From Planctomycetota bacterium (GTDB taxonomy: Bacteria; Planctomycetota; Planctomycetia; Pirellulales; Pirellulaceae), in the NCBI GenBank assembly GCA_029259935.1, contig JAJDEH010000028.1, positions 1-23,761 on the forward strand: a stretch of 23,761 bases of DNA, in the 5' to 3' direction. Numbering within the stretch: the stretch's first letter is position 1; the number at the start of each line of letters is the position of its first letter. The notes below the pieces were generated by a model, which did not search any database, was not told where the DNA came from, and saw nothing but the letters and a program-made list of their open reading frames with translations. The position numbers and the translations under genes were made by a program. Shown here piece after piece: positions 35 to 23,761 of this stretch.

Positions 35-296
35 AACCAGACCTTGTAGCGCCCGGCGGAATTATTAGGATTCGTCCCTCGAAAGGGAACCGGAAGGCGC
101 GGGATTCGATCGGCATTGGAATGAACGGCTCTTGGGACTGACGCGGGCTCTTCTCACTCCTGTTATCTAGTGGATTGATTCCACGGCTGGAACTTTTGCT
201 CCTCATCGGTCGTCAGAGTCTGGCGCGTCCCTTGCGCGCTGGTAGACTATCTTCGTGACGTCAAAAAAACCTACTATTTCACCGGGAAAACCTTCC

Positions 297-3200: not shown

Positions 3201-6200
3201 GATTCAGCCTATCTCGCCGGTCGCAATATCGGCGACGAATATCGCTACATCATCGATCGCCGGTACGCCAAGAAATACCCGGGCGTGATGTTGGCGCGGC
3301 CCAGCCTGCTGCTCAATCCTTGGGCCATTCGAACGACCGAAACCAGTCAACAAGTGGCGCGGCCGGGCGAAGAATATGACAGAAGGGGCACCAACGGAGG
3401 CGGCGATGCCGACCGTGATTCGGGTGGAAGTTCCGGCTCGTCCGCGGCTAGCGATTTCGCGAATCTCGATTTCCTGCCCTCGGCGACTGCCGTGATTATC
3501 AACGCGGCCCCGGATAAAAACGGCCGGGTCGTAATAGACCGGGAATTGCTGGGCGCGAATCATCACATTCACGTCGTGGCCTGCGATCCGACGACGACCG
3601 CGTTTCGATCCGTTGCTCTTCCCGACGAAGCGGCGGAAATGCATGACTTGCGGCTCGTCAACGGACTCGATCCGGCGCAACACTACACTCAACAGAAACA
3701 AGTCAGCGTCATCAAACCCAAAACTGACTTTACGATGACGGACATCACGACGTCACGATTCGAGGCCTACGACAACTTGGCGCGTGTCTATTCGCTGTAC
3801 GCCACGCTGTCGCGAGACCCCAAGCTGTTGGAATTCAGTTTCGTTCTCGGTTGGGACAAACTTGAAGACGAGGCCAAGCAAACGCTGTATTCCAAGTACG
3901 CTTGTCACGAATTGGCGTTCTTCATTTCCCAAAAGGACCCTGAGTTCTTTGAGAATTCGATTCAGCCTTATCTTGCCAACAAGAAAAACAAGACGTTCCT
4001 CGATCGCTGGCTGCTGGAAGAGGATTTGGCGGACGACCTAAAACCGTGGAATCACTCGCAACTGAACATTGTCGAGCGAATCTTGCTGTCGCAACGAATC
4101 GACGGCGAGCAGCGACATACGTCGCGGCATGTAAGCGATCTCTTTAATCTGCTCCCACCCAACGTCGACCGATTTAACCATCTGTTCCACACGGCACTCA
4201 AGGGTAGCGCGCTGGAAACGAGCGACCAATTCGGGTTCGCCGGTGCCAAGACGAGGGCCGTTGAAAGTCTAACGGAATCGCTGAAGAGCCAGCTTGGAGC
4301 CGTCGGCAATAAGTCTGGAGGCAGGCCGGGCCAAGGCAGTGCTGGTGGTGGATTCGGAAATCGACCAGACGCCAAGAGCATGCCCTCCGGCGAGGCGGCT
4401 CCCAGAGACGCCCCCGCGAGGGCACCGGGGAAACCGAGTGCGGCGAAGGCACCCAGAGCACAAGAAAGCAAGAAAGGCAAATCCAAGAAGGAGGGCGAGA
4501 AACTGGATCGGCAGCGCGATGATTTCCGTCGCGTGGACGGCACCGACAAGTACTTCGCCAAGGATATGGAACGGCGAAAAGCGGTCCGGCAGTTGTACCG
4601 GAAGCTCGACAAGACCAAGGAGTGGGTAGAAAACAACTACTACAAACTGGCGATTCAACAGCAGAATGCGGACCTGGTTACCGCGAATGCATTTTGGAAC
4701 GACTATGCCCAACACGATTCTCGGCAGCCGTTCTATTCAACGCACTTGGCCGAGGCGTCACGAAACTTTACTGAAATGATGTTTGCCCTCTCGGTACTCG
4801 ATCTGCCGTTTACCTCGCCGGAACACAAGTCGGACTTCGACGGTCCCAAGATGGACCTGGCCGCGGGTGGCCCGATTGTCATCTTCCACGAGGAAATCAA
4901 GCCGGCCCGGGATGTGGCCCGCCAGACTCCGATTCTCGTCAGCCAGAACTTTTTCCGACACGGCGACCGTTTTCGTTACGAAAATAACGAAAAGCTGGAC
5001 AAATACGTGACGGACGAGTTTCTCATTCACACGACGTACGGCTGTCAGGTGGTGGTGACGAATCCCACGTCGTCGCCGCGCAAGTTGGACATGCTGCTTC
5101 AAATCCCGGTGGGCGCCATGCCGGTGCTAGGCGCGAAGCAAACGCGCAGCGCCCACATCCACCTCGCGCCTTACAACACGCAGACTTTGGAATACTATTT
5201 TTACTTTCCGGCCGACGGCGAGTACCAACATTATCCCGTCCACATTGCCCAGAACGAGCAGTTGGTCGCCTTCGCCGAACCGTTCACGTTCAAGGTGGTC
5301 AAGGAACCGACGAAAGTCGACCGCCAGTCGTGGGCTTACATCTCGCAACACGGTTCCAGCGAAGACGTCCTGCGCTACATGCGCGACAACAATCTGAACC
5401 GGACGAACCTGGACAAGATCGCCTTCCGCATGCAAGACGCCCGCTTCTTCGAAACGGCCGTCAAACTGCTGGACATGCGGCATGTCTATAACGGCACGCT
5501 CTTTTCCTATGGAATCAAACACAATAACGTCCCGTCCATTCGCGAGTTCTTGCAGCACCCCAACAATTACATCAATCGCTGTGGCAGCTATCTCGACTCG
5601 ACGCTGGTCACGATCGATCCAGTCGTGCGAAAGACGTACGAACACATGGAGTACAAACCGCTGGTTAATGCTCGTGCTCATCAGCTTGGCCGCCGCCGCA
5701 AGATTCTGAACAACCGTCTGGAAGGCCAATACAACCGTCTGTTGAAGATCCTCAGCTATCGACGCGATCTGAACGACGATCATTTAATGGCGGTGACGTA
5801 CTACATGTTGTTGCAAGATCGCGTCGAAGAGGCGCTGGCTTTCTTTGACGTCGTCAATACGGACAACTTGGCCACGGAAATGCAATATGATTATTTCCGT
5901 GCGTATACCTCGTTGTATCTCGAAGACGTGGGACATGCTCGCGACATCGCCGCCCGTTACGCCGACCATCCGGTCGACCGCTGGCGGAATGCGTTCGCCG
6001 CGATTTCAACGCAGCTTGACGAAATCGAAGGTGCCGAGACGAAAATCATCGATGACGAGAGCCGAACGGAAGCACAAACGAAGCTCGCGGCGACGCAACC
6101 TAATTTTGAGTTCAAGGTCGAAGCGAAAAAGGTCCACTTGAATCACCAGAACTTGGAAAGCGTCACGGTCAATTACTATTTGATGGACATCGAACTGCTG

Positions 6201-6671
6201 TTCAGCCGCAATCCGTTCGTCCAACAGTATTCGGGCCAATTTTCGTATATCACTCCCAACCAGACGCTGGTATTGGAACTGGCCAAGAATCAGTCGCAAA
6301 CCGTGTTTGACCTGCCCGAAGCGCTGCACAACAGCAACGTGTTGGTGGAAATTTCGGCGGCCGGGCAAAAGAAGAGCCAGGCCTATTACTCGAATTCGCT
6401 GTCGGTCCAGACCATCGAAAACTACGGCCAAGTCCGCGCCACTCACGAAGACAGTGGTAAACCAATTGCCAAGACGTACGTCAAAGTTTATGCCCAAATG
6501 CAGGACGGCAGCGTCAAGTTCTACAAAGACGGCTACACGGATTTGCGCGGCCGTTTCGACTATACGTCGCTGAACACGAATGAATTGGACTTTGTGCGAA
6601 AGTTCTCGCTACTGATCCTCAGCGACACCCATGGAGCCGTTGTCCGAGAAGCGAGTCCGCCAAAACGTTAG
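297..6671 (+). CDS. Giant secreted protein with macroglobulin-like beta domains
   Basis: This is a 2124-residue protein of unknown function. The ATG at 297 is preferred over an in-frame GTG at 255 because it places a clean signal peptide at the N-terminus (MKRFLLISGLLFALVTSRSLA, then GEIGF). About residues 423-483 (APDDAVTLDLFVKNVESLIV and onward) resemble the MG-type beta domains of alpha-2-macroglobulins, and a second beta-rich stretch lies near residues 1500-1680. I see no thioester motif (GCGEQ), so a trapping mechanism is not supported. A Gly/Pro/Ala then Lys/Glu-rich linker lies at about residues 1330-1410. The C-terminal 80 residues resemble a carboxypeptidase-regulatory-like beta sandwich. 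It ends 33 bp before a convergent gene. Similar giant proteins are, from memory, common in planctomycetes. The domain assignment is by eye and tentative; that it is a real exported protein is near certain. Confidence 0.85.
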   Translation: MKRFLLISGLLFALVTSRSLAGEIGFVEDFSLAKDRSVPLKQLIPGTETYYYYHCLHYQNNEQYDKVNETLAAWIKRHGYTGLVNEIRYRQALLTYDKNPERSLAFIAKELGLHFNHQRETLGFQPNLPTRLDQKLIGRDRLKAIAFGRYNNLQGFEDSALDWLAYEKLDANDRRHLIQRLSRPDYVSLTKLVVDDLNYRNSSGFGGAKIHRQLLHGQLDELLKLKPDLRNQTHFVNAYLTKLHPPNDVDLNRDADAREAYLDRLWAFVKTLAPVHNSLKAHVLYHQLVHDRAKGVHDKDRFLAYIATPRHVSYINADFMKRETNRKYAANLSADFNATTMLPPVGNDEPLVREYLHHFFVKEATYKPYESWINDLYLKYNFAETKIVNGLGEPEAWYSMLPADRYQKLKERIDLDFAFTNKSSFAPDDAVTLDLFVKNVESLIVKVYEVNTGNFYRDNLREIDTDINLDGLVANSEKTHKFVDPPLRRIKRHFEFPQCDGRGVYVVDFIGNGTSSRALIRKGKLRYLVRTSTAGHVFTVLDDANRKLPNASLVMSGQQYQADKDGVISVPFSNRPARQPIVLMHRTFASLDHFRHESENYSLAAGIYVDREMLLDRGKAEVVIRPSLKLNGVPVSLDLLEEVKLVITSTDLDGIASTKEAVDFELFENRESTYEFTTPKRLRQIAFSLRAKVQNLSQNAKIDLAASQAFQLNAVDTTEKTEDLHFGKSGANYFIDVLGKTGEVKSDRQVNLSFKHRDFREAVNVSLQSGEHGRVNLGPLKDIAAITAAGPQGTSRTWNPRSDSHSQYRSLHGLAGGTIDIPFMRGGGKPARSDVSLLELRRGTFVADRFETLSMKDGLLRVSELPRGDYDLLLKRTGQRIKLRLSEGRVRENYVLSDNRQLEIRGSKPLQVESVDVGDDGLTVKLTNATKFARVHVFATRYRPAYSAFATLGRVRDIEPYILSIPKEDSAYLAGRNIGDEYRYIIDRRYAKKYPGVMLARPSLLLNPWAIRTTETSQQVARPGEEYDRRGTNGGGDADRDSGGSSGSSAASDFANLDFLPSATAVIINAAPDKNGRVVIDRELLGANHHIHVVACDPTTTAFRSVALPDEAAEMHDLRLVNGLDPAQHYTQQKQVSVIKPKTDFTMTDITTSRFEAYDNLARVYSLYATLSRDPKLLEFSFVLGWDKLEDEAKQTLYSKYACHELAFFISQKDPEFFENSIQPYLANKKNKTFLDRWLLEEDLADDLKPWNHSQLNIVERILLSQRIDGEQRHTSRHVSDLFNLLPPNVDRFNHLFHTALKGSALETSDQFGFAGAKTRAVESLTESLKSQLGAVGNKSGGRPGQGSAGGGFGNRPDAKSMPSGEAAPRDAPARAPGKPSAAKAPRAQESKKGKSKKEGEKLDRQRDDFRRVDGTDKYFAKDMERRKAVRQLYRKLDKTKEWVENNYYKLAIQQQNADLVTANAFWNDYAQHDSRQPFYSTHLAEASRNFTEMMFALSVLDLPFTSPEHKSDFDGPKMDLAAGGPIVIFHEEIKPARDVARQTPILVSQNFFRHGDRFRYENNEKLDKYVTDEFLIHTTYGCQVVVTNPTSSPRKLDMLLQIPVGAMPVLGAKQTRSAHIHLAPYNTQTLEYYFYFPADGEYQHYPVHIAQNEQLVAFAEPFTFKVVKEPTKVDRQSWAYISQHGSSEDVLRYMRDNNLNRTNLDKIAFRMQDARFFETAVKLLDMRHVYNGTLFSYGIKHNNVPSIREFLQHPNNYINRCGSYLDSTLVTIDPVVRKTYEHMEYKPLVNARAHQLGRRRKILNNRLEGQYNRLLKILSYRRDLNDDHLMAVTYYMLLQDRVEEALAFFDVVNTDNLATEMQYDYFRAYTSLYLEDVGHARDIAARYADHPVDRWRNAFAAISTQLDEIEGAETKIIDDESRTEAQTKLAATQPNFEFKVEAKKVHLNHQNLESVTVNYYLMDIELLFSRNPFVQQYSGQFSYITPNQTLVLELAKNQSQTVFDLPEALHNSNVLVEISAAGQKKSQAYYSNSLSVQTIENYGQVRATHEDSGKPIAKTYVKVYAQMQDGSVKFYKDGYTDLRGRFDYTSLNTNELDFVRKFSLLILSDTHGAVVREASPPKR

Positions 6672-7805: not shown

Positions 7806-7988
7806 GGATGCTATCCTTGTGGAAGAGGGAAGGATTTTTGACATGTTGAGCTGCGAAAACTAATCCGCAGAACTTCAATCAGGTGTGTTGCGTATCTCTT
7901 TTAGCCTACCTTCGTTATCCTCAACATCGTCACATGTCTCCAGCATAATCGCAAGCGCTTCGAGACGGAACTTTGATTGGTGGCGTCC

Positions 7989-9278
7989 ATGCAGTCTCAG
8001 CTTTCCAGCCGCGTCGTTACGTTGATTCTTGGCCTGATCGCGATCGGCTTGGGATGGTTGCTTTGGCCGGGTAGCGAAAAACCGGCGGACCAACCGCTGG
8101 CTGTGTCCAAGTCGGTTGCCTTCGACAAGCAACGGCTGGGCGACAAAGGCGACGTGCCGCGAATCGCCAACGTACAAATCGTTGACTTGGACCAGGACGG
8201 CAAGAACGAAGTGCTGGCTTGCGATGTCTCGCGCAACAGCGTGATCTTGTATCGCCCCTCGCAGTCCGGCCAGTGGGAAGAGACGGTCTTGGGCAGCAAG
8301 CTCAAGGCACCCGCGCACGCGACGCTCACCGATTTGGATCAAGACGGCGACCAAGACGTCGTGGTCTCGATCTTGGGCAGCATCACGCCGTCCGACGACC
8401 TGATGGGAAAGGTCGTGCTGCTGGAAAACACCGAAGACGGCTTCGTTCAACACATCTTGCTCGACGATGTGCGGCGAGTGGCCGATGTGCAAGCCGGTGA
8501 TTTGGACGGCGACGGCGACACGGACTTGGCCGTGGCGGTCTTTGGTTACGCTCGCGGAGAAATCTTGTGGCTGGAGAATCGCGGCGAGGGAAAATTCCGC
8601 GACCATCAATTGCTGTCGCGGCCCGGAGTGATCCATGTACCGATCCGCGACTACGACGGCGACGGCGACCTCGACTTGGCGACGGTCGTTTCGCAGTACG
8701 AAGAGGAAGTTTGGGGCTTGGAAAACCAGGGCAACGGCGTTTTTAAGCCGCATGTATTGTACGCTAATCACAATGTCGACCTGGGGACGGGCGGCCTGGT
8801 CGCCTGCGATCTCGATCAAGACGGCGACGATGATTTTCTGCTGCCTTGCGGCGACAATTTGGAATACGGACTGGGCTGGCCGCAACCGTATCACGGTTGT
8901 GTTTGGCTGGAGAATCAAGGCGATTGGAAGTTCGCCAGCAAGACGATCGGGACGTTGGGTGGAACTTACGCGGCGGCGGCGGGCGACGTCGATGGAGACG
9001 GAGACCAGGATGTCGTACTGGCCAGCATGTCCAACAACTGGAGCGACTCGTCGCGGCCGAGCCTGGTGTGGTTGGAAAACGACGGCCAACAGAATTTTAA
9101 AATGTGGCAGGTCGACAATTCACCGGTGGAACTGATCACCGTCGATTGTGGCGACTTGAACCAAGACGGCAAGCTGGACATCGTCGCCGGCGGACTGCAT
9201 GTGAACAATCACCATTCCGCCGGCATCCAGAACGTCCAGCGGGTCACCGTTTGGCTTGGCAAAGGGAGCGGCAAATGA
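7989..9278 (+). CDS. Membrane-anchored seven-repeat FG-GAP/VCBS propeller
   Basis: This 429-residue protein starts at ATG 7989; a TTG at 7977 and a GTG at 7980 are in frame but less likely. An N-terminal hydrophobic segment (residues about 8-26, VVTLILGLIAIGLGWLLW) is an uncleaved anchor or signal. Seven calcium-loop repeats of the form DxDxDGxxD follow (DLDQDGKNEV, DLDQDGDQDV, DLDGDGDTDL, DYDGDGDLDL, DLDQDGDDDF, DVDGDGDQDV, DLNQDGKLDI), predicting a complete seven-bladed beta-propeller facing the periplasm. FG-GAP propellers generally bind proteins or glycans; the ligand here is unknown. Its TGA stop overlaps the ATG of the TPR gene (ATGA), so the two are translationally coupled. It lacks the ASPIC/UnbV and thioredoxin parts of the giant paralogues at 11218-18842. 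Confidence 0.92.
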   Translation: MQSQLSSRVVTLILGLIAIGLGWLLWPGSEKPADQPLAVSKSVAFDKQRLGDKGDVPRIANVQIVDLDQDGKNEVLACDVSRNSVILYRPSQSGQWEETVLGSKLKAPAHATLTDLDQDGDQDVVVSILGSITPSDDLMGKVVLLENTEDGFVQHILLDDVRRVADVQAGDLDGDGDTDLAVAVFGYARGEILWLENRGEGKFRDHQLLSRPGVIHVPIRDYDGDGDLDLATVVSQYEEEVWGLENQGNGVFKPHVLYANHNVDLGTGGLVACDLDQDGDDDFLLPCGDNLEYGLGWPQPYHGCVWLENQGDWKFASKTIGTLGGTYAAAAGDVDGDGDQDVVLASMSNNWSDSSRPSLVWLENDGQQNFKMWQVDNSPVELITVDCGDLNQDGKLDIVAGGLHVNNHHSAGIQNVQRVTVWLGKGSGK

Positions 9279-10660
9279 GGCGTTTACAAGGCTTGCTCTG
9301 CTTGGTCATTCTCGCGGAAGTGGCGGTGCTGTCGGTGCGATACTTCGGCGGAACACTCTTGGAAAATCTCAGCCTGTCGACACTCGAATCGGCCACCGCA
9401 GAAGAAATTCGCCAGTTGCAGAAGCGAATCGATCCGGCCTCGGCCGACGATTGGTTTGCCATGGGGCGCGTGCTGCGGGCCTATGAACTGTTGCCGACGG
9501 CTAACTACTGCTACGAGCGAGCCGACAAGCTGAGGCCGCACGATCATGAGATATTGTTTTCCTGGGGCGTCAGCCTCAGCCGAATGGGACAGTTCGATCA
9601 AGCTCGCGAAAAGATGGAAGCCGCGATTGAGCATGGAGCGGAAAATCCGCACGAATGTTGGTATGTGATCGGCCGCGACTACCTGCGGATGGAAAACCCG
9701 GAAGCCGCCGAACCGGCGCTGCGCAATGCAATCACCGCGCAGCCGAACATGGCGGGTGTCAAGCTTGGCCGCTGGCTGCTGCGTTCCGATCGGCCGGAGG
9801 AAGCCGTGCGGATCCTAGACGAGATGATTGACAAGAATCCCAACACAATGACCGCGCATCAAATCAAGGGGTGGGCCGAAGCGGCGCTGGGAAATGACGA
9901 GGCGGCTTACGAGCATGAGCAGATTTCGCTACGGTGCACCGACCGCATTCCCAAGTTCAACTACGATTCCAAAGAAGATGCGGACATCATTTCCCGATTC
10001 GGAATCTATCGATTGCTGGGCGAGTCGCGCGGACGTCAGCAACGCGGCAACCTGGCCGCCGCCATCACCACTCTACAGCAGGCTGCTGAAATCAGTTGGC
10101 AAGAGCGAATGGCTCGACAATTGGCCCGCTACCAACTTCAGAATCGCGATCCGCAAGGCGCGATCGCCACGCTGAACGACTGCATTCGCAAAGTGGGCGC
10201 GTCGCGCACCGATTTGGAGTTGCTGGGCGTTGCCTATATGCAGCAGGGAGATCCCCAGCAGGCCAAGGAAGCATGGCTCGAAGCGGCGACGATGCAGGCC
10301 ACGGGTGTGCTGATGCCGAACATCACGGTTCACGAAAAATTGTCCGAGGCCTTTCGCATCGAGGGGAATACAGACTTAGCCAAGCTGCATAAGGGACTTC
10401 AATTCTACGAGGAGGGAAAGCTCGCCTGGCGAGAAAATCAGATCCGGCCGGCGCTGGGCTTCTTTGAAAAGGCCGCCAAGTTGTTGGACGACCATGCTCA
10501 TACTTGGTTTTATCTGGCCCAAGCGCGGCGAGTTCACGACGATCTGGACGGTGCGCGGCAAGCCTACCAGCGTTGTCTGGAGATAGATCCCAACCATGGA
10601 CGGGCGCTGAGCCGTTTGGATCACTTGGAATCGTCGCTGAAGTCCGAAGAGCGGGAGTAG
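9275..10660 (+). CDS. Membrane-anchored TPR protein, partner of the FG-GAP propeller
   Basis: This 461-residue protein starts at the ATG overlapping the previous stop, with a good Shine-Dalgarno (AAGGGAG) 8 bases upstream. Residues about 5-25 form a single hydrophobic segment, a signal anchor. The rest is helical with TPR-like pairs: DDWFAMGRVLRAYELLPTAN, HEILFSWGVSLSRMGQFDQA, HECWYVIGRDYLRMENPEAA, and at the C-terminus HTWFYLAQARRVHDDLDGAR ending in a typical CLEIDPNHGRALSRL repeat. TPRs are protein-protein scaffolds. With the ATGA overlap this suggests a two-subunit periplasmic propeller/TPR complex. The giant proteins on the other strand fuse propeller and TPR modules in one chain, which supports a functional pairing. 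No catalytic motif is visible. Confidence 0.9.
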   Translation: MRRLQGLLCLVILAEVAVLSVRYFGGTLLENLSLSTLESATAEEIRQLQKRIDPASADDWFAMGRVLRAYELLPTANYCYERADKLRPHDHEILFSWGVSLSRMGQFDQAREKMEAAIEHGAENPHECWYVIGRDYLRMENPEAAEPALRNAITAQPNMAGVKLGRWLLRSDRPEEAVRILDEMIDKNPNTMTAHQIKGWAEAALGNDEAAYEHEQISLRCTDRIPKFNYDSKEDADIISRFGIYRLLGESRGRQQRGNLAAAITTLQQAAEISWQERMARQLARYQLQNRDPQGAIATLNDCIRKVGASRTDLELLGVAYMQQGDPQQAKEAWLEAATMQATGVLMPNITVHEKLSEAFRIEGNTDLAKLHKGLQFYEEGKLAWRENQIRPALGFFEKAAKLLDDHAHTWFYLAQARRVHDDLDGARQAYQRCLEIDPNHGRALSRLDHLESSLKSEERE

Positions 10661-11217: not shown

Positions 11218-13104
11218 CTATTGCTTTGTGTCCGGGGCCGTGGCCGATTTGATCTGTTCAAGTTGCGTTCGCACCGCCGCCAGGTTGGGATCGAGTTGCA
11301 AGGCCCGCTCGAAGTACTCGATGGCTTCCAAACGGCGTTCTTGTCTGGCGAATTCCGTCCCTATCGCGGCGGTCAAGTTGGCTTGTTCTGGAATCGCCTT
11401 CAGACCTTGCTGGTAGAGCGCGATGGCTTCGTCGCCGCGATCCGCCTGGCGGAGCAACCCGCCGAGAGCAAGGTACAGCTTGGCGCCATCCGGCTTCGAT
11501 CGAATTGCCGTTCGCAAGACCGCCATCGCATCTTCAACCTGCTGCTGATGCGACAGAATACTCGAATAGTTGAGCTGAACCTGTTCGAGTTCCGGCGCGG
11601 ACTTGGCGGCTTGTTCGGCTTCGAGCAGCGCGTCGTCGTATTGGCCCAATTCCGTGAGCGCGATCGCCATGAAGCTTTGCGTCAGTGGCTGAGGCATTAG
11701 CCGCTGCGACGTGCGCAGATGTTCAAGGGCCTTGATGCTTTGCTTCTGTCGCAGGTAAAGGCGGCCCAAAAAGTAGTGGGCGTTCCCATCGTCGGCGTCC
11801 GCCGCCAACATGTCGTGATAAAGATCGACGGCGTCTTCAAGGTACCCGAGCTTGCGGAAATTGTCGGCAATATCCACTAGTTCCCTGCGTCCAGGCTCGG
11901 CGACCCACCGTCCGGGAAACGGCTGAGCAAGCTCGCGACGGCGTATCGGATCGTCCGTCAGTTGCTGGACATCGACGAGCAATTGGTCGACGTCGACGGC
12001 CCCTTTGTAGATGGCGGCCACATAGCCATCGCCGTTGATAAGGAGACTGAGCGGCGCTGGCAGGGGCTGATGCCAATCGTAAACCGAATCGTAGACAAAC
12101 TGAATTCGCCGCCGAATGTTGACGTCCGCTTTCCCACTGCGAAACGGGAAGTCAATCTGTTTGAGGAAGTTGGCGACCTGCTCGTCGTCATCGCCTAGAT
12201 CCGACAAATTGTCGACATTGAGCGCCACGATATCTAGCCCGGTGGCCCGAATTTCTCCGGCATGATGGGTGAACTCCTTCAGTTCCGTGCGACATGGCAG
12301 ACAGAAGCTGGCCCACAAATTGACCAGCACTGGTTGCCCCGAACCGCGGAGGAAGGCGTCGTGTTGTTGGCCGTTGAAGTCCTTGTAGGCAAGCCGCAGC
12401 ATGGGATAAGGCGCGACGGCGATCGTTCGTGATTGTGGTGGGAGATCGGCGGCGACGGTGGGTGACGCCTGTATATCAAGCTTACGTTGCGGCGGAGTCC
12501 ACGGCTCGGCCGCGCCGGTGCCTTCAACAAGTTGAAACCAGCCATCGACGTCCGCGCCTTCAAATTGTTCTGCTTCACCGCCCGGCCAGCGGACGTGGAC
12601 GCTCTGAATCTTTTCGGCCTGGCCCAATCCGAAAGTCACCCATTTGCTGGACTGGCTCTGATAGCCCGAACCCGCGTACAACGTTTTAATCTGTTTTCCT
12701 TGAACTCCCTCGGCGACGACTTCGACCCGCGCGCCGATTGCGTCGCGATTCGTGGTCGGGCCGCTGCCCCGCAGTCGCAATGACACAAAGTGATTCTTAT
12801 GCGGGACATCATTGCGCAGAAACCGCAACCGGGGGCCCGTTCGATTGGCCATCCACAGGTCCTGATCGCCGTCGTGATCCCAATCCACTAGCGCCAGCGA
12901 ACGGCTGTCGTCAAAGTAGTCCAATCCGGAGCAGGCGGAAATGTTCGCGAATCGGGGTCCGCGCGTATTGAGGAAGCAACAGTTCTTTTCGCGTCCACTA
13001 AACGACCGCCCCTGCTGAAGCAGGTTGTTCAAGATGTTGTTTTCATTTTTGGTCCAGCGATCAATTGCTTCGTCCCGGTCCGGGTCGATGGGTGCGCGTG
13101 CCAC
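11218..13104 (-). CDS. Copy 1, part after the UGA: last FG-GAP repeat, ASPIC/UnbV, thioredoxin, TPR
   Basis: If translated separately, the first usable codon is GTG 13104, seven codons after the TGA, with no convincing Shine-Dalgarno and no signal peptide, although every domain in it belongs to exported families. Numbering from that GTG: REKNCCFLNT (Cys 42-43), the seventh FG-GAP repeat DWDHDGDQD (about 74-82) then NRTGPRLRFLRND, ASPIC/UnbV with NRDAIGARVEV (119-129), a TlpA/AhpC-like thioredoxin domain with WASFCLPCRTEL (active-site Cys 268 and 271) and a likely cis-Pro at PAPLSLLING, then about six TPRs to the end. A thioredoxin of this type would handle disulfides or peroxide outside the membrane. 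The missing leader is strong evidence that this is not an independent gene. Confidence 0.55.
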   Translation of the reverse strand: MARAPIDPDRDEAIDRWTKNENNILNNLLQQGRSFSGREKNCCFLNTRGPRFANISACSGLDYFDDSRSLALVDWDHDGDQDLWMANRTGPRLRFLRNDVPHKNHFVSLRLRGSGPTTNRDAIGARVEVVAEGVQGKQIKTLYAGSGYQSQSSKWVTFGLGQAEKIQSVHVRWPGGEAEQFEGADVDGWFQLVEGTGAAEPWTPPQRKLDIQASPTVAADLPPQSRTIAVAPYPMLRLAYKDFNGQQHDAFLRGSGQPVLVNLWASFCLPCRTELKEFTHHAGEIRATGLDIVALNVDNLSDLGDDDEQVANFLKQIDFPFRSGKADVNIRRRIQFVYDSVYDWHQPLPAPLSLLINGDGYVAAIYKGAVDVDQLLVDVQQLTDDPIRRRELAQPFPGRWVAEPGRRELVDIADNFRKLGYLEDAVDLYHDMLAADADDGNAHYFLGRLYLRQKQSIKALEHLRTSQRLMPQPLTQSFMAIALTELGQYDDALLEAEQAAKSAPELEQVQLNYSSILSHQQQVEDAMAVLRTAIRSKPDGAKLYLALGGLLRQADRGDEAIALYQQGLKAIPEQANLTAAIGTEFARQERRLEAIEYFERALQLDPNLAAVRTQLEQIKSATAPDTKQ

Positions 13105-15030
13105 GACGCGCCGCCAGTAGAAACTTCACAAATCGCGGGTGTCGCTGCTGGTAATGTGGCCGTTGGCGACAATCAGATCCTCCCAGCCGTCGTTGTTGAT
13201 ATCGACGAAATTCGAACCCCACGCCCAGCGTCCCAAGGTCACTCCGGCCTCGACGCTGGTCTCGCGAAACTTACCGTCGCCGGTGTTCTCAAACAGCGTG
13301 TTTCCTCGGCTCATTCGCAAGAAACTTGCCCGGACATCGTCGGTGACGCCGGGCCGGAACAACGATTTCGTGACAATTCGGTTGCCCGCGCCGGAAAACA
13401 TGTTGCTGATGTACAGGTCCATCCAGCCGTCGCGGTTGTAGTCGCCCCAACTGGCCGACATACCAAAGTTAAAATCCTCGGTATTGGTTTCGGGAGCCGC
13501 ATTGATGAACTTTCCCCCATCGTTGCGATACAGATTGTTGCGGCCAAAGTCGTTGGCCACATAAACATCTAGATCTCCGTCGTTGTCGTAATCTTCCCAG
13601 GAAGCTGCGAAGGTGTAGCGGCGGTTGTCGACATCCAGTCCCACTTCTTCGGTGACATCGGGGAACTGCCAGTTGCCGTCATTGCGAAGCATGGCGTTAC
13701 GTCCGCCGTTGTTGGCGTCATGGAAGGGCATCGGCATGGGGTAAGTTTCCACATCATCCGTTTGTGGACGATAGCCGCACAAATAAATGTCCAAGTCGCC
13801 ATCTTCGTCATAGTCGGCGGCGGTCGCCGACAAATGATCGCCCTCGCGTAATATCGTCTTGACGGTGAATTTGCCCTGACCGTCGTTTTCCAAAAAGATT
13901 GTCGCCGGGCCGCTGCGCGTACACAGCACAAGGTCCTGATCACCGTCGTTATCCAGATCGACCAGCAACGCCGAGGATGAAACATCGTTAAAGTCGACGC
14001 CTGCCTGGCGTGCCTTATCCGACGCGGTGCCGTCGGGATTCTGCACGAAAAGACGATTCGGCAGTCCGCCCGACTGACAAACGTAGACATCGTCCAGTCC
14101 GTCGCCATTCACGTCGCCGATGGCCAAGCCCTGATGGCCGAAGAAATCGGGTCCCAGCAGGCGGTCTACCCGCTGCACCCAATAACCAACGCCCCGGCCC
14201 AACGCGTCTCGTGACATTTCCTCCTTCGAAAGAACGGCCTCGGTGCACTCACGAAACAGCGACTTGCCTCCAGCCTGCAACTCGGCCTCTTCATATTGTT
14301 CCAGTTGGATGCGTTGGATCCGCGGCGGTTCCTTGCCGGCTGATTCTCTCCATTGGATCCGCCACTTGGCGTTTTGCTCAAAACCATTTTCGCGGGCCGA
14401 ACCGGTTACCGTGACATACTGGACGGTCGTGAATTGGCCCTTTCCGACCTCATCGATTCCAAAGACTTTGAACGCGAAATGTAGTTGCGAGACGTTTTCA
14501 ATCGAAGCCGTTAAGTCGGCGAGTGCCGTGGCGAGTCCGTCGATTCCGGTAAACTCGGCCGCGTCTGTTTCCGTGGTCTTGGCGCGTCCGATTCTCACGA
14601 CTTCGTCGGCGTAGGCCGTGTCGATCTTTGGCCGCAGTGGGCCGCAGGAAAAGTCGCCGGTGACCAGCTTGCCCAAATCTTTCGTCTTAACTTGGCCGTC
14701 GCTGGACACATGCTTGGCCAGTTCTTTCAATTGATCCTTGGCGGCCGATTGCAAGGCTTCCGTTCGCCATCCTTCGCTGAGCGGATCGTCGACGGCGCTT
14801 TCGATTCGCTGCCGTTCACGCAAATATTCTTCATCGAATCCTCCGGTGATCATTTTTTGCGACGTGACCACGGGCAGCGTGGCATCTTGGGTCGCAATTG
14901 GATCGTTTCCCGTGCCAGTGTTGCTGCCGCCTTGGTGGGTGATGTCGCAACCACCACAACCCATAGATATAAATGCCAGCACGCTAATGAGCCATGCGGA
15001 CCGCGACTTTGTCGTTCGTGTAAATAGCAT
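11218..15030 (-). CDS. Read-through giant propeller/UnbV/thioredoxin/TPR lipoprotein, copy 1 (candidate selenoprotein, U635)
   Basis: Read through one in-frame TGA (13128-13126), this is a single 1270-residue protein. The frame before and after the TGA is identical and no other stop occurs over 1270 codons. The seven-repeat propeller motif is completed only when the TGA is read: six DxDxDGxxD repeats precede it and the seventh (DWDHDGDQD) follows. Domain order: lipoprotein signal, NTF2-like N-domain, FG-GAP propeller, ASPIC/UnbV (about 760-835), thioredoxin-like (about 877-1022, CLPC at 910-913), TPRs (about 1047-1262). It follows its paralogue by 38 bp and precedes the small membrane protein by 14 bp, forming one operon. 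Selenocysteine is the likeliest residue at 635 given the SECIS-like hairpin and nearby Cys-Cys (684-685), but Cys insertion, readthrough or reinitiation cannot be excluded without protein data. Confidence 0.7.
13094..13128 (-). promoter_or_regulatory. In-frame UGA with SECIS-like hairpin, copy 1
   Basis: Numbering bases after the TGA (13128-13126) as +1, arm GCGCGT is at +15 to +20, loop CGTGGC at +21 to +26, and arm ACGCGC at +27 to +32. A lower UGG/CCA pairing (+10 to +12 with +35 to +37) is separated by a 2x2 internal loop. Bacterial SECIS elements lie directly after UGA within the coding region and carry a G early in the apical loop; the G at +22 fits that. The bulged U of the E. coli fdhF element is not evident. 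The region also encodes a conserved RRVVxRAP segment, so the stem could be incidental. Confidence 0.5.
13126..15030 (-). CDS. Copy 1, part before the UGA: lipoprotein with six FG-GAP repeats
   Basis: This is the 634-residue product if UGA terminates. ATG 15030 is chosen over a TTG at 15042 because GGGGGA lies just upstream. Residues 1-24 form a lipoprotein leader (LISVLAFISMGC, then GGC). Residues about 60-250 resemble an NTF2/SnoaL-like domain with conserved LVTGDFSCGPLRP. The CRTAC1-type hallmark follows: GVGYWVQRVDRLLGPDFFGH, then six calcium-loop repeats (DVNGDGLDD, DLDNDGDQD, DYDEDGDLD, DYDNDGDLD, DYNRDGWMD, DINNDGWED). Cysteines in YVCQSG, LVLCT and YLCG are shared with copy 2 and suit an extracytoplasmic protein. 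Ending here would leave the propeller one blade short and remove its ASPIC/UnbV domain, which in this family normally follows in the same chain. Confidence 0.6.
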   Translation of the reverse strand: MLFTRTTKSRSAWLISVLAFISMGCGGCDITHQGGSNTGTGNDPIATQDATLPVVTSQKMITGGFDEEYLRERQRIESAVDDPLSEGWRTEALQSAAKDQLKELAKHVSSDGQVKTKDLGKLVTGDFSCGPLRPKIDTAYADEVVRIGRAKTTETDAAEFTGIDGLATALADLTASIENVSQLHFAFKVFGIDEVGKGQFTTVQYVTVTGSARENGFEQNAKWRIQWRESAGKEPPRIQRIQLEQYEEAELQAGGKSLFRECTEAVLSKEEMSRDALGRGVGYWVQRVDRLLGPDFFGHQGLAIGDVNGDGLDDVYVCQSGGLPNRLFVQNPDGTASDKARQAGVDFNDVSSSALLVDLDNDGDQDLVLCTRSGPATIFLENDGQGKFTVKTILREGDHLSATAADYDEDGDLDIYLCGYRPQTDDVETYPMPMPFHDANNGGRNAMLRNDGNWQFPDVTEEVGLDVDNRRYTFAASWEDYDNDGDLDVYVANDFGRNNLYRNDGGKFINAAPETNTEDFNFGMSASWGDYNRDGWMDLYISNMFSGAGNRIVTKSLFRPGVTDDVRASFLRMSRGNTLFENTGDGKFRETSVEAGVTLGRWAWGSNFVDINNDGWEDLIVANGHITSSDTRDL

Positions 15031-15068
15031 GAGTTCCCCCAACCTAAGCTTGGGGCCGCGATTGTGGA

Positions 15069-16880
15069 CTAGGAAGCATTGGAATCGGGCGACCGCGCTG
15101 CTTCGATGGCCTTCTCTAACTGCGCGTTTTTGGGATTGGCTTCCAACCCTCGCTCGAGAATTTTTATCGCTTCTTCCTTTTGGCCGAAGCTAATGAGGAT
15201 TTGGTTGAGATAGATGTAGCTTTCGACAAATCCAGGTTCGGCCTTGATTGCCGTCCGCAGCATCTTGAGCGCCTGGGCGGATTGCCGTAACTCCATCAGC
15301 AAGCGGGCATGATTGACGTAGACCTGACCATAGCCCGGGTCCAACTTGACCGCCTTTTGGTATTGCTCAATCGCGTCGTCAACTCGGCCGAGCGATTCCA
15401 GCGCCTTGGCCAGGTTGTTATGAGCTAGTGGCGAAGGCTGCAATTTGAGCGAGGTTTCATAATGCTCAATGGCCTTCGGGATCTCGTCGGACTTTTGTGC
15501 GATCATCCCCAAGTTGCGATGAACGCCGCCTCGTTCTTCATCCGTCAGCTCCGTTTTCAAGACTTTGTGATAGACGGCGGCGGCATCCTTTTTGAATCCT
15601 TTTTTGTGATAGACCGAGGCCAAGGTGAGCAAATTGCGATGAGGGGGATCGGCAAGCCACTTACCGGGCACTGCCTCGGCCATTTTGACTCGTTCCCCCG
15701 TCGTCGCCGACAGGTCGCGAACGTCCTGCAAGAGTTTTTCAACGTCGATCGCCCCCTTGTACATCGCGGCCAAGCCACCTTGGCCATCGATCAACAAGCT
15801 GGTCGGCGTAACGAGCGGTTCGTGCCAGGCAAAGACTTCGTCTTGAATGATTTGGATCTTGCGAAGGTTTTCATCCGTCGCCATTCCCGCCGTTTGGGAG
15901 TAACCCCAACTGGCAAGTATCCGGGCAGCTTCCGTCGGCGTGCTCGTCACCTTGCAATCGGGTACGCCATTGATGCTGAGGGCCACGATTTTAAGGCCGG
16001 CCTTGTCGAACGCGACGGCCTGTTTGCCAAGATTGCGCAGTTCGACGCCACATGGCTTACACCCGGTAGACCATAGAACCACCAGCACCGGCTGGCCCGA
16101 ATCGCGTTCAAATGCCGTTTGCGGTTGGCCCTGCATATCGTTGTAGTTCAGTTCCAGCATCTCGATCGGCGCGGCAAAGATCGTTCGCTGGCTGAGTGGC
16201 GGGTCGGGGATGCTGGTCACCGAAGGGGTCAATGGTGACTCGGGCCGGGGAGGCGTCCAGGGATCGGCTTTGCCGGTGGCTTGCACAAGCACAAAGAAAC
16301 CATTCGCCTTGACTCCCTCGAACCGCTCTTGGCGGCCGCCAGGCCAATCCACCAAAACATGAGAGACCTTGCCGGATGGGCCGAGCCCAAAGCTGAGCCA
16401 CTTGCTGGACTGGCTTTGAAATCCCGATCCAGCGAACAGCGTCTTGACGAGCTTCAAATCCGAGTTGCCCTCGGTGACGACTTCCACGCGAGCGCCGATC
16501 GCGTCGCGGTTCGTCGTTTTTCCATTGCCTTGCAAGCGAAGAGAAACGAACTGGTTGTCCGTTTTCGAGTCGTTCCGCATGAAACGCACTCGGGGTCCGG
16601 TGCGATTGGTCATCCACAAATCGGGATCACCGTCGAAGTCCCAGTCCGTCGTGGCCAACGAGCGGCTGTCGTCCACGTGATCCAAACCCGCGCAGGACGA
16701 AATATTGGCGAAGCGAGTGCCGCCAGTATTTAGAAAACAGCAATTCTTTTCGTTGCCGCTGAACGCGCGGCCAAACCGCAACATGTAATAAATCCGTCCC
16801 AGCTCTTTGTTGTAATCCTGACCGCGAGCCCCCGTGTCGACTTCAACCGGTGCGCGTTCCACGACGCGCCTCCAAAACAA
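15069..16880 (-). CDS. Copy 2, part after the UGA: last FG-GAP repeat, ASPIC/UnbV, thioredoxin, TPR
   Basis: Separate translation would need TTG 16880 (one codon after the TGA) or GTG 16862, which has GGAGG six bases upstream, so reinitiation is more credible here than in copy 1. There is no signal peptide. Numbering from TTG: NEKNCCFLNT (Cys 47-48), the seventh repeat DWDFDGDPD (79-87), NRTGPRVRFMRND, NRDAIGARVEV (124-134), thioredoxin-like domain with LWSTGCKPCGVEL (Cys 274 and 277) and TPTSLLIDGQ supplying the cis-Pro region, then TPRs such as HNNLAKALESLGRVDDAIEQ. The CxxC centre differs from copy 1 (CKPC against CLPC), suggesting different redox potential or partner. The stop is TAG at 15069-15071. 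Confidence 0.55.
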   Translation of the reverse strand: MFWRRVVERAPVEVDTGARGQDYNKELGRIYYMLRFGRAFSGNEKNCCFLNTGGTRFANISSCAGLDHVDDSRSLATTDWDFDGDPDLWMTNRTGPRVRFMRNDSKTDNQFVSLRLQGNGKTTNRDAIGARVEVVTEGNSDLKLVKTLFAGSGFQSQSSKWLSFGLGPSGKVSHVLVDWPGGRQERFEGVKANGFFVLVQATGKADPWTPPRPESPLTPSVTSIPDPPLSQRTIFAAPIEMLELNYNDMQGQPQTAFERDSGQPVLVVLWSTGCKPCGVELRNLGKQAVAFDKAGLKIVALSINGVPDCKVTSTPTEAARILASWGYSQTAGMATDENLRKIQIIQDEVFAWHEPLVTPTSLLIDGQGGLAAMYKGAIDVEKLLQDVRDLSATTGERVKMAEAVPGKWLADPPHRNLLTLASVYHKKGFKKDAAAVYHKVLKTELTDEERGGVHRNLGMIAQKSDEIPKAIEHYETSLKLQPSPLAHNNLAKALESLGRVDDAIEQYQKAVKLDPGYGQVYVNHARLLMELRQSAQALKMLRTAIKAEPGFVESYIYLNQILISFGQKEEAIKILERGLEANPKNAQLEKAIEAARSPDSNAS

Positions 16881-18842
16881 ACTTCACAAATCGCCCGAGT
16901 CCTGAGGGTTGGAGACATAGCCGTTGGCCACCACCAGATCTTCCCAGCCGTCGTTGTTCAGATCGATGAAGTTGGAACCCCACGCCCAACGTCCCAGCGT
17001 AACGCCCGCATCTTCGCTAACGTCTTGAAACTGACTGCCACCTTGGTTCAGCAGCAACGTGTTGCCGCGGGCCAGCCGCATAAAACGCGAGCGCGTTTTG
17101 GAATCGATCCCCGGTTTAAAGCGATTCTGGGACATGACGCGATTTCCGGCGCTGGAATACATATTGGCGATGTAGATGTCCAGCAGGCCGTCTCGATTGG
17201 GATCCCCAAAACTTACCGACATCCCAAAGTTGCCGTCTTCCGCGCCGGAGGCTTCCGTGACATCCATGAATTTGCCGCCGTCATTGCGATAGAGATTATT
17301 GCGGCCCCAGTCGTTGGCCACGTAGATGTCCAAGTCGCCGTCATTATCAATGTCGGCCCAACTGGCGGCAAAGCTATATCGACGGTTGTTGACGTCCAAG
17401 CCTACTTCTTTCGTAACGTCGGTGAATTGAAAGTCGCCGTCGTTGCGCAACAGCGCGTTACGACCGCCGTTGTTGGCGTCGTGAATCGGCATCGGCGAGG
17501 GGAATCGATCGCCGCCTTTCGTGTTTTGCGCGCAAAGATACAAATCCAAGTCGCCATCGTTGTCATAATCGGCCGCCGTCGGATTGAGATAGTCGGCGTC
17601 GCGAAACTCCTTCACCAACTCGAAATGCCCTTGCCCGTCGTTCGACATGATGACTGTCGAAGGTTGGATTCGCGTGCAGAGTACAAGGTCTTGATCGCCG
17701 TCGTTGTCCAGGTCGATCAACAGCACTCCGGACGACATATCGGCCCAATCGACGCCCGCTTCGGCGGCGATATCGGTGGCCTTGCCGTCGGCATCGTGAA
17801 TGAACAAACAGTTAGGCAGCGCTCCCGACTGGCAAACGTAGACATCATCGATGCCGTCGCCGTTCACGTCGCCCAGGGCGATCCCCTGATGGCCGAAGAT
17901 GTCAGGCCCCAGATGGTTGTCGACCCGCCCCATCCAGTACGACACTCCCCGCGCCAGAGTTTTCTCGAAGAGCGGATTGTGTTGGAGTACCGCCTCCGTG
18001 CACTCGTTGAAGATCTTTTCCTTGCCGGCCAATAGGACCGCTTGTTCGAACTGGCGGACGTTAATGCTTCGCAGTCGCGGCTTTTTGTCCTTGTCGGTCT
18101 TGACCCACTCGGCAAGCCACATCGAGTTTTGCTCAAAGCCATTGCCGTGTGTCGTGCCGGTGAGCGTGATGTACTGCTTGGTGGTAAAGAAGCCGTCCTC
18201 TTGCTGAATTCCAAAAACCTTGACGGCGAAATGCGGATGGTCGACGTCATCCAGTCCATAGAGGCTTTGCCGGAATGCCTTTAGCAAATCGGCGGAGCCC
18301 TTGTGGAGCGGCGATTCGGACTTGGGCTGTTCGCCGGACGGACTCCACCGCACTATCGACAGTTCAGAATCGGCGAACACTTCTTGCAGCGGCGCGGGCC
18401 GCAGTGGCTGGCAACTAAAGTCCTCGGTGATGAGTTTGTCGAGCGCCGCTAGGCGCGCGGAATCAGGGTCCTCGGTGGCGGACCCTTCTTCGTGAGCAGA
18501 GATGCTCTTCTCAAGAATCTCCGCCAACGCATAGAGCTGATGCTTTGCGTCCGATTGGAGTACTTCCGTAGTCCAACCTTCGCCGTCGGGATCGTCCTCT
18601 TGGTCAACTCTCTGCTGCTCCTTTGAGTTCACCTTCAGCGCCTGGGTTACCGCCCCGTCCCCGTTGACCGTTGGCACATCGTTCGCCGGACCGCCGGCGG
18701 CGGGCTCGACAAATGGAGGGAAGTCCACCAGCGCGTTGTCGCCAGCGGGATCTTGGGAATTGGGTTCCGTCGAATCGCAAGCCGGCAGAGCGGCCAGCCA
18801 GACGGTAAGTAGAAGGGGCCACGGCCCACGCACTTGGAACAT
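15069..18842 (-). CDS. Read-through giant propeller/UnbV/thioredoxin/TPR lipoprotein, copy 2 (candidate selenoprotein, U653)
   Basis: Read through one in-frame TGA (16886-16884), this is a 1257-residue tandem paralogue of the gene at 11218-15030. The architecture is the same: lipoprotein leader, NTF2-like domain, seven FG-GAP repeats (six before, DWDFDGDPD after the TGA), ASPIC/UnbV (about 775-855), thioredoxin-like (CKPC at 928-931), TPRs to the end. The two copies have clearly diverged, especially in the N-domain, the linker before thioredoxin and the CxxC centre, yet both keep the TGA at the same aligned codon and an open frame for about 600 codons beyond it. Nearby Cys-Cys is at 701-702, 48 residues after U653, against 49 in copy 1. 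The gene leads into copy 1 with a 38-bp gap. Regulation may come from a promoter just upstream or from the lipoprotein gene at 19017-19442. Confidence 0.7.
16852..16886 (-). promoter_or_regulatory. In-frame UGA with SECIS-like hairpin, copy 2
   Basis: After the TGA (16886-16884) the arms GCGCGT (+15 to +20) and ACGCGC (+27 to +32) enclose loop CGTGGA (+21 to +26). The offsets are identical to copy 1, with a single loop base changed. Sixteen bases spanning the stop (GCGATTTGTGAAGTTT) are identical in the two copies. The lower stem is poorer than in copy 1. A GGAGG at +11 to +15 overlaps the first base of the left arm and could instead serve as a ribosome site for GTG 16862. Confidence 0.5.
16884..18842 (-). 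CDS. Copy 2, part before the UGA: lipoprotein with six FG-GAP repeats
   Basis: This is the 652-residue product if UGA terminates. ATG 18842 is preferred to an in-frame ATG at 18881: it gives a compact lipoprotein leader with lipobox LPAC (MFQVRGPWPLLLTVWLAALPAC) and has GAGG 10 bases upstream. After a low-complexity spacer comes the NTF2-like region with ITEDFSCQPLRP and GFEQNSMWLAEW. Then come GVSYWMGRVDNHLGPDIFGH and six calcium-loop repeats (DVNGDGIDD, DLDNDGDQD, DYDNDGDLD, DIDNDGDLD, DPNRDGLLD, DLNNDGWED). It ends VANGYVSNPQDSGDL immediately before TGA, the same Asp-Leu that precedes the TGA in copy 1. As a stand-alone chain it would be an incomplete propeller. Confidence 0.6.
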   Translation of the reverse strand: MFQVRGPWPLLLTVWLAALPACDSTEPNSQDPAGDNALVDFPPFVEPAAGGPANDVPTVNGDGAVTQALKVNSKEQQRVDQEDDPDGEGWTTEVLQSDAKHQLYALAEILEKSISAHEEGSATEDPDSARLAALDKLITEDFSCQPLRPAPLQEVFADSELSIVRWSPSGEQPKSESPLHKGSADLLKAFRQSLYGLDDVDHPHFAVKVFGIQQEDGFFTTKQYITLTGTTHGNGFEQNSMWLAEWVKTDKDKKPRLRSINVRQFEQAVLLAGKEKIFNECTEAVLQHNPLFEKTLARGVSYWMGRVDNHLGPDIFGHQGIALGDVNGDGIDDVYVCQSGALPNCLFIHDADGKATDIAAEAGVDWADMSSGVLLIDLDNDGDQDLVLCTRIQPSTVIMSNDGQGHFELVKEFRDADYLNPTAADYDNDGDLDLYLCAQNTKGGDRFPSPMPIHDANNGGRNALLRNDGDFQFTDVTKEVGLDVNNRRYSFAASWADIDNDGDLDIYVANDWGRNNLYRNDGGKFMDVTEASGAEDGNFGMSVSFGDPNRDGLLDIYIANMYSSAGNRVMSQNRFKPGIDSKTRSRFMRLARGNTLLLNQGGSQFQDVSEDAGVTLGRWAWGSNFIDLNNDGWEDLVVANGYVSNPQDSGDL

Positions 18843-18872
18843 GCGGAATCGACCTCGGGAGTTACTCTTCCC

Positions 18873-18899
18873 AGTATACATACATCAGGATACGAACAA
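18873..18899 (-). promoter_or_regulatory. Possible sigma-70 promoter for the giant paralogue operon
   Basis: On the minus strand TTGTTC and TATACT are separated by 15 bases, shorter than the ideal 17. The predicted transcript start falls about 24 bases before ATG 18842, which agrees with that start rather than 18881. The 174 bp up to the lipoprotein gene otherwise hold only a small GC palindrome (18993-19005). Confidence 0.3.
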
Positions 18900-21268: not shown

Positions 21269-21384
21269 AGAGTCGTCAAATCTGCGGCAAAAACAAAGGT
21301 CGACCTAAAGATGAGAGCGAGACGAGCGTGAAGACAAGGATTGATCTTCGTCAGTTGTTGGCCAGCCGTGTTGGCCCTTCATCC

Positions 21385-22247
21385 ATGACATCCCGTCAGG
21401 TTACTTGCCGCGCACGCGTTGTTGTTTTGATAGTGCTAGCGTGGCTTTCTTTTCCCTTCGGCGCGGCACGCGGGCAAGACACGGCCGCTTACTTCCGCCA
21501 GAACTGCATGAACTGCCACACGATTGGCGGCGGGCAACTGAGTGGCCCCGATCTCAAAGATGTCTCGAAACGAAAAGACCGGCAGTGGCTGATCAAGTTC
21601 ATGATGGATCCCAAGGCGGTCATCGCCAGCGGCGATCCGTATGCCAAGAAAATTCTGGAAGAGTCGCGAAACGTTCCCATGCCCACGCTGCCCGGCATGA
21701 CACAGGAGCGCGCCGGATACCTTCTCGACCTGATCGAAGCGGAATCGAAGCTTGAGAAATCACAGTTCAAAGGACTGCAGATATCGAACAAGCCCTTTAC
21801 CGAAGCCGATCGAATTGCGGGGCGTTCCATCTTTGTGGGCCAAACTCCTTTGGAAAGCGGCGGGACTTCGTGCATCTCGTGCCATGGCATGTACGACACT
21901 CCCGCGTTGGGGGGCGGCCGCCTGGGTCCCGATCTGACGAATGTCTACGAACGGCTCAAGGGACGTAAGTCGCTCAGCGCATGGCTGGGAGCGCCCGGCA
22001 CGGAAACGATGCAGCCCATTTTCAGGGATCATCCGATGAGCGGTGACGAGATCCATCGTTTGGTGGCGTATTTTGAATCTTCCGCCGGCGAAAGCCCCGC
22101 CGACCCGTCGACGAATCGCGTGGCGTTTTTGCTCATGGGCCTGCTGGCCGCCGCCGGGATGATTTTCGGCTTCGACGCGATTTGGAAACGACGATTCCAC
22201 AGTGTTCGCCAGCCCCTGGTGGACTCCACTACGGTACGAGGTAACGA

Positions 22248-22251
<4 letters not shown>
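21385..22251 (+). CDS. narC: Membrane-anchored diheme cytochrome c of nitrate reductase operon (NarC-like)
   Basis: This 288-residue protein starts at ATG 21385, chosen because it gives a normal signal peptide (residues about 8-31, ending AARGQ); a GTG at 21328 is in frame and would add 19 residues. There are two c-type heme motifs, CMNCH at residues 41-45 and CISCH at 163-167. Methionines in MPTLPGM (about 99-105) and in MQP or HPMSG (about 210-218) are candidate axial ligands. A C-terminal transmembrane helix (about 244-267, [20 protein letters not shown]) is followed by a basic cytoplasmic tail. It overlaps narG (GTGA), as narC precedes narG in the Thermus narCGHJI operon, where the diheme subunit takes part in electron transfer and assembly of the complex. 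A role as electron carrier between quinone/NarI and the periplasm is inferred from that parallel. Confidence 0.85.

Positions 22252-23761
<1,510 letters not shown>

Follow-up and report, generated by a model that had tools for sequence, protein, structure and literature searches.

In-frame UGA codons in two tandem CRTAC1-like genes of a planctomycete: most likely a new selenoprotein family

How does a ribosome read through a gene that carries a stop codon in its middle? Two neighbouring genes on the minus strand of a stretch of planctomycete DNA, 23,761 nucleotides long (the window), raise this question. In each gene a single TGA interrupts an otherwise open frame. For copy 1, the first-pass annotation had claimed that the frame is the same on both sides of the TGA, with one stop in 1271 codons. 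This is confirmed: the frame from 15030 to 11218 has 1271 codons and exactly two stops, the internal TGA at codon 635 and, at codon 1271, the TAG that ends it. Copy 2 lies directly upstream of copy 1, and an alignment of 1178 positions shows the two proteins to be 50% identical.

11218..15030, minus strand: copy 1, whole recoded frame, 1270 residues if the UGA is read; its single internal stop is the TGA of codon 635
13126..13128, minus strand: in-frame UGA of copy 1, likely a selenocysteine (Sec) codon, residue 635; all 79 loci compared have TGA here (see below)
15069..18881, minus strand: copy 2, the tandem paralogue, whole recoded frame; its single internal stop is the TGA of codon 666
16884..16886, minus strand: in-frame UGA of copy 2, likely a Sec codon, residue 666, at a site homologous to the copy 1 UGA

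The true start of copy 2 may be the ATG at codon 14 (18842). The in-frame TGA is more than chance, because copy 2 has a homologous TGA and relatives keep the codon. TGA is not reassigned throughout the window, since it terminates three of the eight other frames examined there, and genome-wide reassignment is ruled out on the same ground. The explanation that fits best is that the in-frame UGA of both copies is likely read as Sec, which would yield one long polypeptide. We put the probability of this reading at about 0.9; Sec insertion, the chemistry of the product and its export we infer.

The window holds several other genes on its plus strand. An intact FG-GAP protein (7977-9278) is followed by a TPR protein (9269-10660), both on the strand opposite to the recoded genes. 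At 21328-23759 a cytochrome c gene precedes the beginning of a molybdopterin oxidoreductase, and the frame of the latter overlaps the end of the former. An open frame of 2138 residues (255-6671) has no Pfam match at E 0.001.

What kind of protein would be made if the UGA were read? In both copies FG-GAP repeats precede the TGA, and an ASPIC/UnbV domain, an AhpC/TSA-type thioredoxin domain and TPRs follow it. Membership in the CRTAC1 / ASPIC-UnbV group is indicated by FG-GAP repeats and an ASPIC/UnbV domain that exceed their cut-offs and by the CRTAC1 fold. No NCBIfam model exceeds its cut-off for either window copy. The window proteins share domains with CRTAC1 and bacterial CRTAC1-like proteins (FG-GAP PF13517 plus ASPIC/UnbV PF07593) but add the in-frame UGA with its hairpin and the C-terminal thioredoxin-like and TPR domains. 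The predicted product is a lipoprotein that would be exported, in which a CRTAC1-like propeller with ASPIC/UnbV is followed by a TlpA/ResA-like thioredoxin domain and then by TPRs. The structure prediction places the UGA residue in the propeller part, where it begins a helix.

12544..12741, minus strand: ASPIC/UnbV domain of copy 1 (PF07593)
12292..12303, minus strand: CLPC of copy 1 (CxxC, residues 910-913), in the thioredoxin-like domain
12979..12981, minus strand: Cys684 of copy 1, common among UGA forms; its link to the UGA is not significant over independent pairs

Do relatives keep the UGA? Genome contigs were scanned with the read-through protein, and the best 80 of 201 matches were kept, giving 79 loci: 41 from Planctomycetota, 28 from Verrucomicrobiota, 3 from Acidobacteriota, 2 from Lentisphaerota, 1 from Tharpellota and 4 unassigned. 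In all 79 the best match has TGA at the column, usually in the setting DL-UGA-S-x-x-WRQVV; because the loci were chosen by similarity to a UGA protein, this is not a share of all homologues. With a motif that accepts any stop, TGA was found in 142 of 142 matches, counting all loci in the set, against a background of 32058 TGA among 53302 stops in all frames of the same loci. Two off-target motif matches, in L031 and L062, were dropped before the counts. Relatives with an intact frame carry the stretch SFFWRQVV after the site, which argues that the stretch after the UGA is translated. Together these observations support the earlier inference that the UGA is translated.

The UGA form is also found in samples of whole genomes. 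Among 294 planctomycete genomes, 169 match the region around the UGA (at most nine candidates were scored per genome, and rows and genomes were counted by hand). Among the 150 matches listed, 131 have exactly one stop, a TGA, and 19 have no stop. The strict DL-UGA-S pattern matched only the seed in a sample of the verrucomicrobial phylum (1 of 240 genomes), so the seed's own family was sampled. There, in the family of G017 (its locus is labelled Roseibacillus), the pattern occurs in 24 of 117 genomes at 1 to 11 copies each, with none in the control. It was not found in viral contigs. A diverged subfamily, PD(F/Y/W)-UGA-T-x-x-WR, forms tandem arrays at four loci (L139, L140, L149 and L150), with one UGA per gene. 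A strict pattern for this subfamily was matched in 24 places in 7 of the 294 genomes (reversed control 0), and one genome, G164, has at least 8 copies. Among nine flanking proteins of five loci there was no common neighbour. The UGA is very likely the Sec codon of a widespread selenoprotein family, and many carriers have several such genes in one genome.

Two further UGA sites lie in L029, at positions 733 and 6051. Here a similar WRxVV stretch comes after an upstream sequence that differs, VDL-UGA, and overall identity to the query is just 30-31%.

Which residue do relatives without the stop have at this column? From 7775 matches, 120 intact-frame homologues were listed, and exclusion of 6 gap rows left 114. 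These have Asp (38), Ser (19), Glu (15), Cys (12), Ala (8), Trp (1) or others. The pairing of Cys with Sec is the usual mark of selenoproteins. This pairing is present but weak here, because Cys accounts for 12 of 114. A tree of 262 rows places one of the Cys rows, P0003, as a near relative of L066, a UGA row. The statement in the first-pass annotation that some homologues have Cys at the column needs correction in that Cys is a minority; most homologues have Asp, Ser or Glu. On the same tree, made with the site's own columns left out, the UGA label changes at least 29 times, or at least 17 times when only starred branches are counted, each change being a gain or a loss, indistinguishably.

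Reading UGA as Sec would follow the standard bacterial route, which uses SelB, tRNA-Sec and a hairpin just downstream of the codon. A hairpin had been placed at 13094-13128 in copy 1. It is indeed there, with a 6-bp stem, and copy 2 has its counterpart.

13094..13111, minus strand: SECIS-like hairpin of copy 1, stem GCGCGU/ACGCGC, loop CGUGGC, 20 nt after the UGA
16852..16869, minus strand: SECIS-like hairpin of copy 2, stem GCGCGU/ACGCGC, loop CGUGGA, 20 nt after the UGA

A 2026 review (PMC13188914) describes the bacterial SECIS as a stem-loop after the UGA with a G in the first two loop positions and a spacing of 16-37 nt; stability is demanded only to -7.5 kcal/mol. The window hairpins are likewise stem-loops just 3' of the UGA, and both reach -7.5 kcal/mol. 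We tightened these rules into a strict test, requiring a stem of at least 5, a spacing of 16-21, and a G followed by G or U at the first or second base of the loop. This test is passed by 139 of 144 UGA sites (85/89 in a first set and 54/55 in a second), both window copies included. Only 5 of 18 non-UGA homologues pass, and of 4856 background sites elsewhere in the same genes 265 do so (5.5%). Both L158 matches, position 823 of L134 (doubtful alignment) and L133 (gap) were left out of the hairpin sets, and six repeats of first-set sequences were removed from the second.

In most relatives the hairpin has the loop GGUCG, 17 nt after the UGA, formed by codon-constrained bases. The window copies differ in that their hairpins are shifted, with CGUGGC or CGUGGA at a spacing of 20. 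The common register has five stem pairs: 77 of 89 UGA sequences keep all five and 8 keep four, whereas in this register the window copies, whose own stem is shifted, keep three and two. The constraint is also seen in codon choice. Across the 79 UGA loci, the codon-choice entropy of 237 conserved columns is lowest at codons 643, 644, 641 and 642, and codons 634, 636 and 640 rank within the lowest twelve. The median ratio to background is 0.96. Folding energy, tried as proof of a SECIS, failed: it is not below that of synonymous-codon shuffles (mean z -0.28, n=89; -0.22 and +0.57 for the window copies), nor is that of the window hairpins below dinucleotide shuffles. The signal of the hairpin lies in its place, its loop and its codon choice, not in its stability. 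A search of Rfam over 12900-17000 gave no match up to E 10.

Do the carriers have the machinery for Sec? SelB exceeds its cut-off in 40 of 49 genomes with UGA loci and in 2 of 14 controls; for SelA, with fragments counted, the figures are 42 of 49 and 1 of 14. tRNA-Sec exceeds the Rfam cut-off in 38 of 49, but it does so in 5 of 14 controls as well, so a line of 60 bits was adopted, above which 35 of the 49 remain. Second matches to the tRNA-Sec model in the same genomes reach up to 54 bits. Three of the examined matches of 42-51 bits are tRNA-Leu or tRNA-Ser according to ARAGORN, which called tRNA-Sec, with anticodon TCA, in 8 of 8 tested loci above the line. At least one of SelA, SelB and tRNA-Sec (above 60 bits) is present in 47 of the 49 genomes; none of the three was found in G014 and G032.

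The association holds in larger samples. SelB is present in 57 of 62 planctomycete genomes with a listed UGA match versus 133 of 232 others, and in the family of G017 in 23 of 24 UGA genomes versus 34 of 93 others; the genomes were counted by hand, and the 'others' may harbour weaker, unlisted UGA matches. Fisher's test gives p of about 7e-8 in each sample, with kinship ignored. Four of the five planctomycete UGA genomes without SelB have tRNA-Sec; in the fifth, G110, neither tRNA-Sec nor SelA was found either. The locus of G110, L153, is a diverged UGA form with the setting PDG-UGA-SCVWQAV.

A further association lies within the protein itself. The CxxC of its own thioredoxin-like domain is intact in 115 of 117 UGA rows versus 27 of 101 others, and over independent pairs the linkage stands at 7.7 to 0.0 (median p 0.008). 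The first-pass annotation had cited both a Cys-Cys pair and the CLPC as support for Sec. The thioredoxin CxxC is linked to the UGA; the link of Cys684 is not significant over independent pairs, and although this residue is common in UGA forms its role as an obligate partner is not supported. One UGA form, L073 (Candidatus Tharpella), has SRQS in place of the thioredoxin CxxC.

Could the UGA be a true stop after all? Translation might restart downstream, for example at the GTG of codon 643 (13104), to give a propeller protein and an ASPIC-thioredoxin-TPR protein. The first-pass annotation had claimed that the chain after the TGA lacks a good start signal. Inspection of the copy 1 sequence by eye revealed no evident ribosome-binding site for this GTG; the codon could in principle serve as a start. 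It is GTG in all 70 loci, of 79, that have Val there, and gene callers begin the second half at this point (P0121 and P0123). Residues 636-642, however, are conserved as amino acids, with Ser636 and Arg640 in 79 of 79 loci, and they are found in intact-frame homologues too. The hairpin is kept even in several diverged subfamilies whose codon 643 is not GTG. A stop could equally well be TAA or TAG, yet neither occurs in the 142 matches, and a restart leaves the SelB association unexplained. We consider a restart very improbable, and recoding of the UGA is strongly supported.

If the UGA is recoded, it might still be read as Trp, Cys or Ser, by a near-cognate or a dedicated non-Sec tRNA. Ser and Cys do occupy the column in intact homologues (19 and 12 of 114), but Trp does so only once. 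The hairpin, whose loop is of the bSECIS type, and the association with SelB and tRNA-Sec fit Sec instead, and TGA terminates other genes in the window. This alternative strikes us as very improbable. Pseudogene copies or a sequencing error at the TGA, for which nothing speaks except the interrupted frame itself, are for practical purposes ruled out by relatives that share the codon (TGA in 79 of 79) and by its presence in two 50%-identical tandem copies, each without a further internal stop.

Sec is favoured because the column conserves UGA and no other stop, a SECIS-like hairpin follows at a fixed spacing, SelB is enriched in carriers and a redox CxxC is linked to the codon. It is by far the best-supported decoding, and the original suggestion that Sec fits best is upheld by the hairpin counts, the SelB enrichment and the CxxC linkage.

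What would Sec do at this site? The UGA residue may be a redox site that the CxxC in the thioredoxin-like domain of the same protein reduces in cis; its substrate, at a guess, would be a peroxide, a disulfide or a similar oxidised compound outside the cytoplasm. TlpA/ResA-type selenoproteins (UGC-containing TlpA, WAxxUGC NF041054) share the TlpA/ResA-like domain with the window protein. In those proteins Sec lies within the thioredoxin motif, whereas the motif here reads CLPC, and the UGA belongs to the propeller part, 275 codons further upstream. To a fuller picture we give even odds: a catalytic Sec at the start of a helix on the beta-propeller would be recharged by the thioredoxin domain of the same chain; gain or loss of Sec would have occurred repeatedly where Asp and Ser, rather than Cys, are the usual residues; and the gene would be present up to 11-fold per genome in planctomycetes and marine verrucomicrobia.

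Has such a selenoprotein been described? The first-pass annotation knew of none in the FG-GAP/ASPIC family. Table 1 of PMC13188914 lists prokaryotic selenoproteins, given in the text as 119 families or subfamilies, and has no FG-GAP, VCBS, ASPIC, UnbV or CRTAC1 entry, in agreement with that claim, though an earlier mention elsewhere is possible; the review does not mention planctomycetes. By term search, ASPIC, FG-GAP, VCBS and CRTAC are absent from the main texts of PMC12013277, PMC9312934 and PMC5029168. The main text of PMC4807772, whose candidates stand in a supplementary table, reports Sec in planctomycete genomes and names neither ASPIC nor FG-GAP. A passage of PMC3909097 names ASPIC/UnbV in Poribacteria, without selenium. 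A title search for selenoprotein or selenocysteine with UnbV, FG-GAP, VCBS or CRTAC1 returned nothing relevant. Most likely, then, this is a new selenoprotein family, with a CRTAC1-like propeller and Sec at the start of a helix.

The halves of both window genes that follow the UGA are already in the databases as separate proteins, P0121 (11218-13104) and P0123 (597 residues, from copy 2). Taken as a class, 2317 database proteins with about half the full length have a match to the downstream half, and many public proteins may be mis-called halves of read-through chains. According to a passage in PMC13188914, the hunt for new selenoproteins tends to rely on Cys-Sec pairs; if our reading is true, Sec occupies a site that in kin is mostly not Cys, unlike the sites on which such searches are based. 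The CxxC linkage suggests a testable redox function for ASPIC/UnbV proteins of the UGA type. If the reading is true, planctomycetes and other phyla would have a large selenoprotein family in which Sec sits on a propeller fold, outside the thioredoxin motif.
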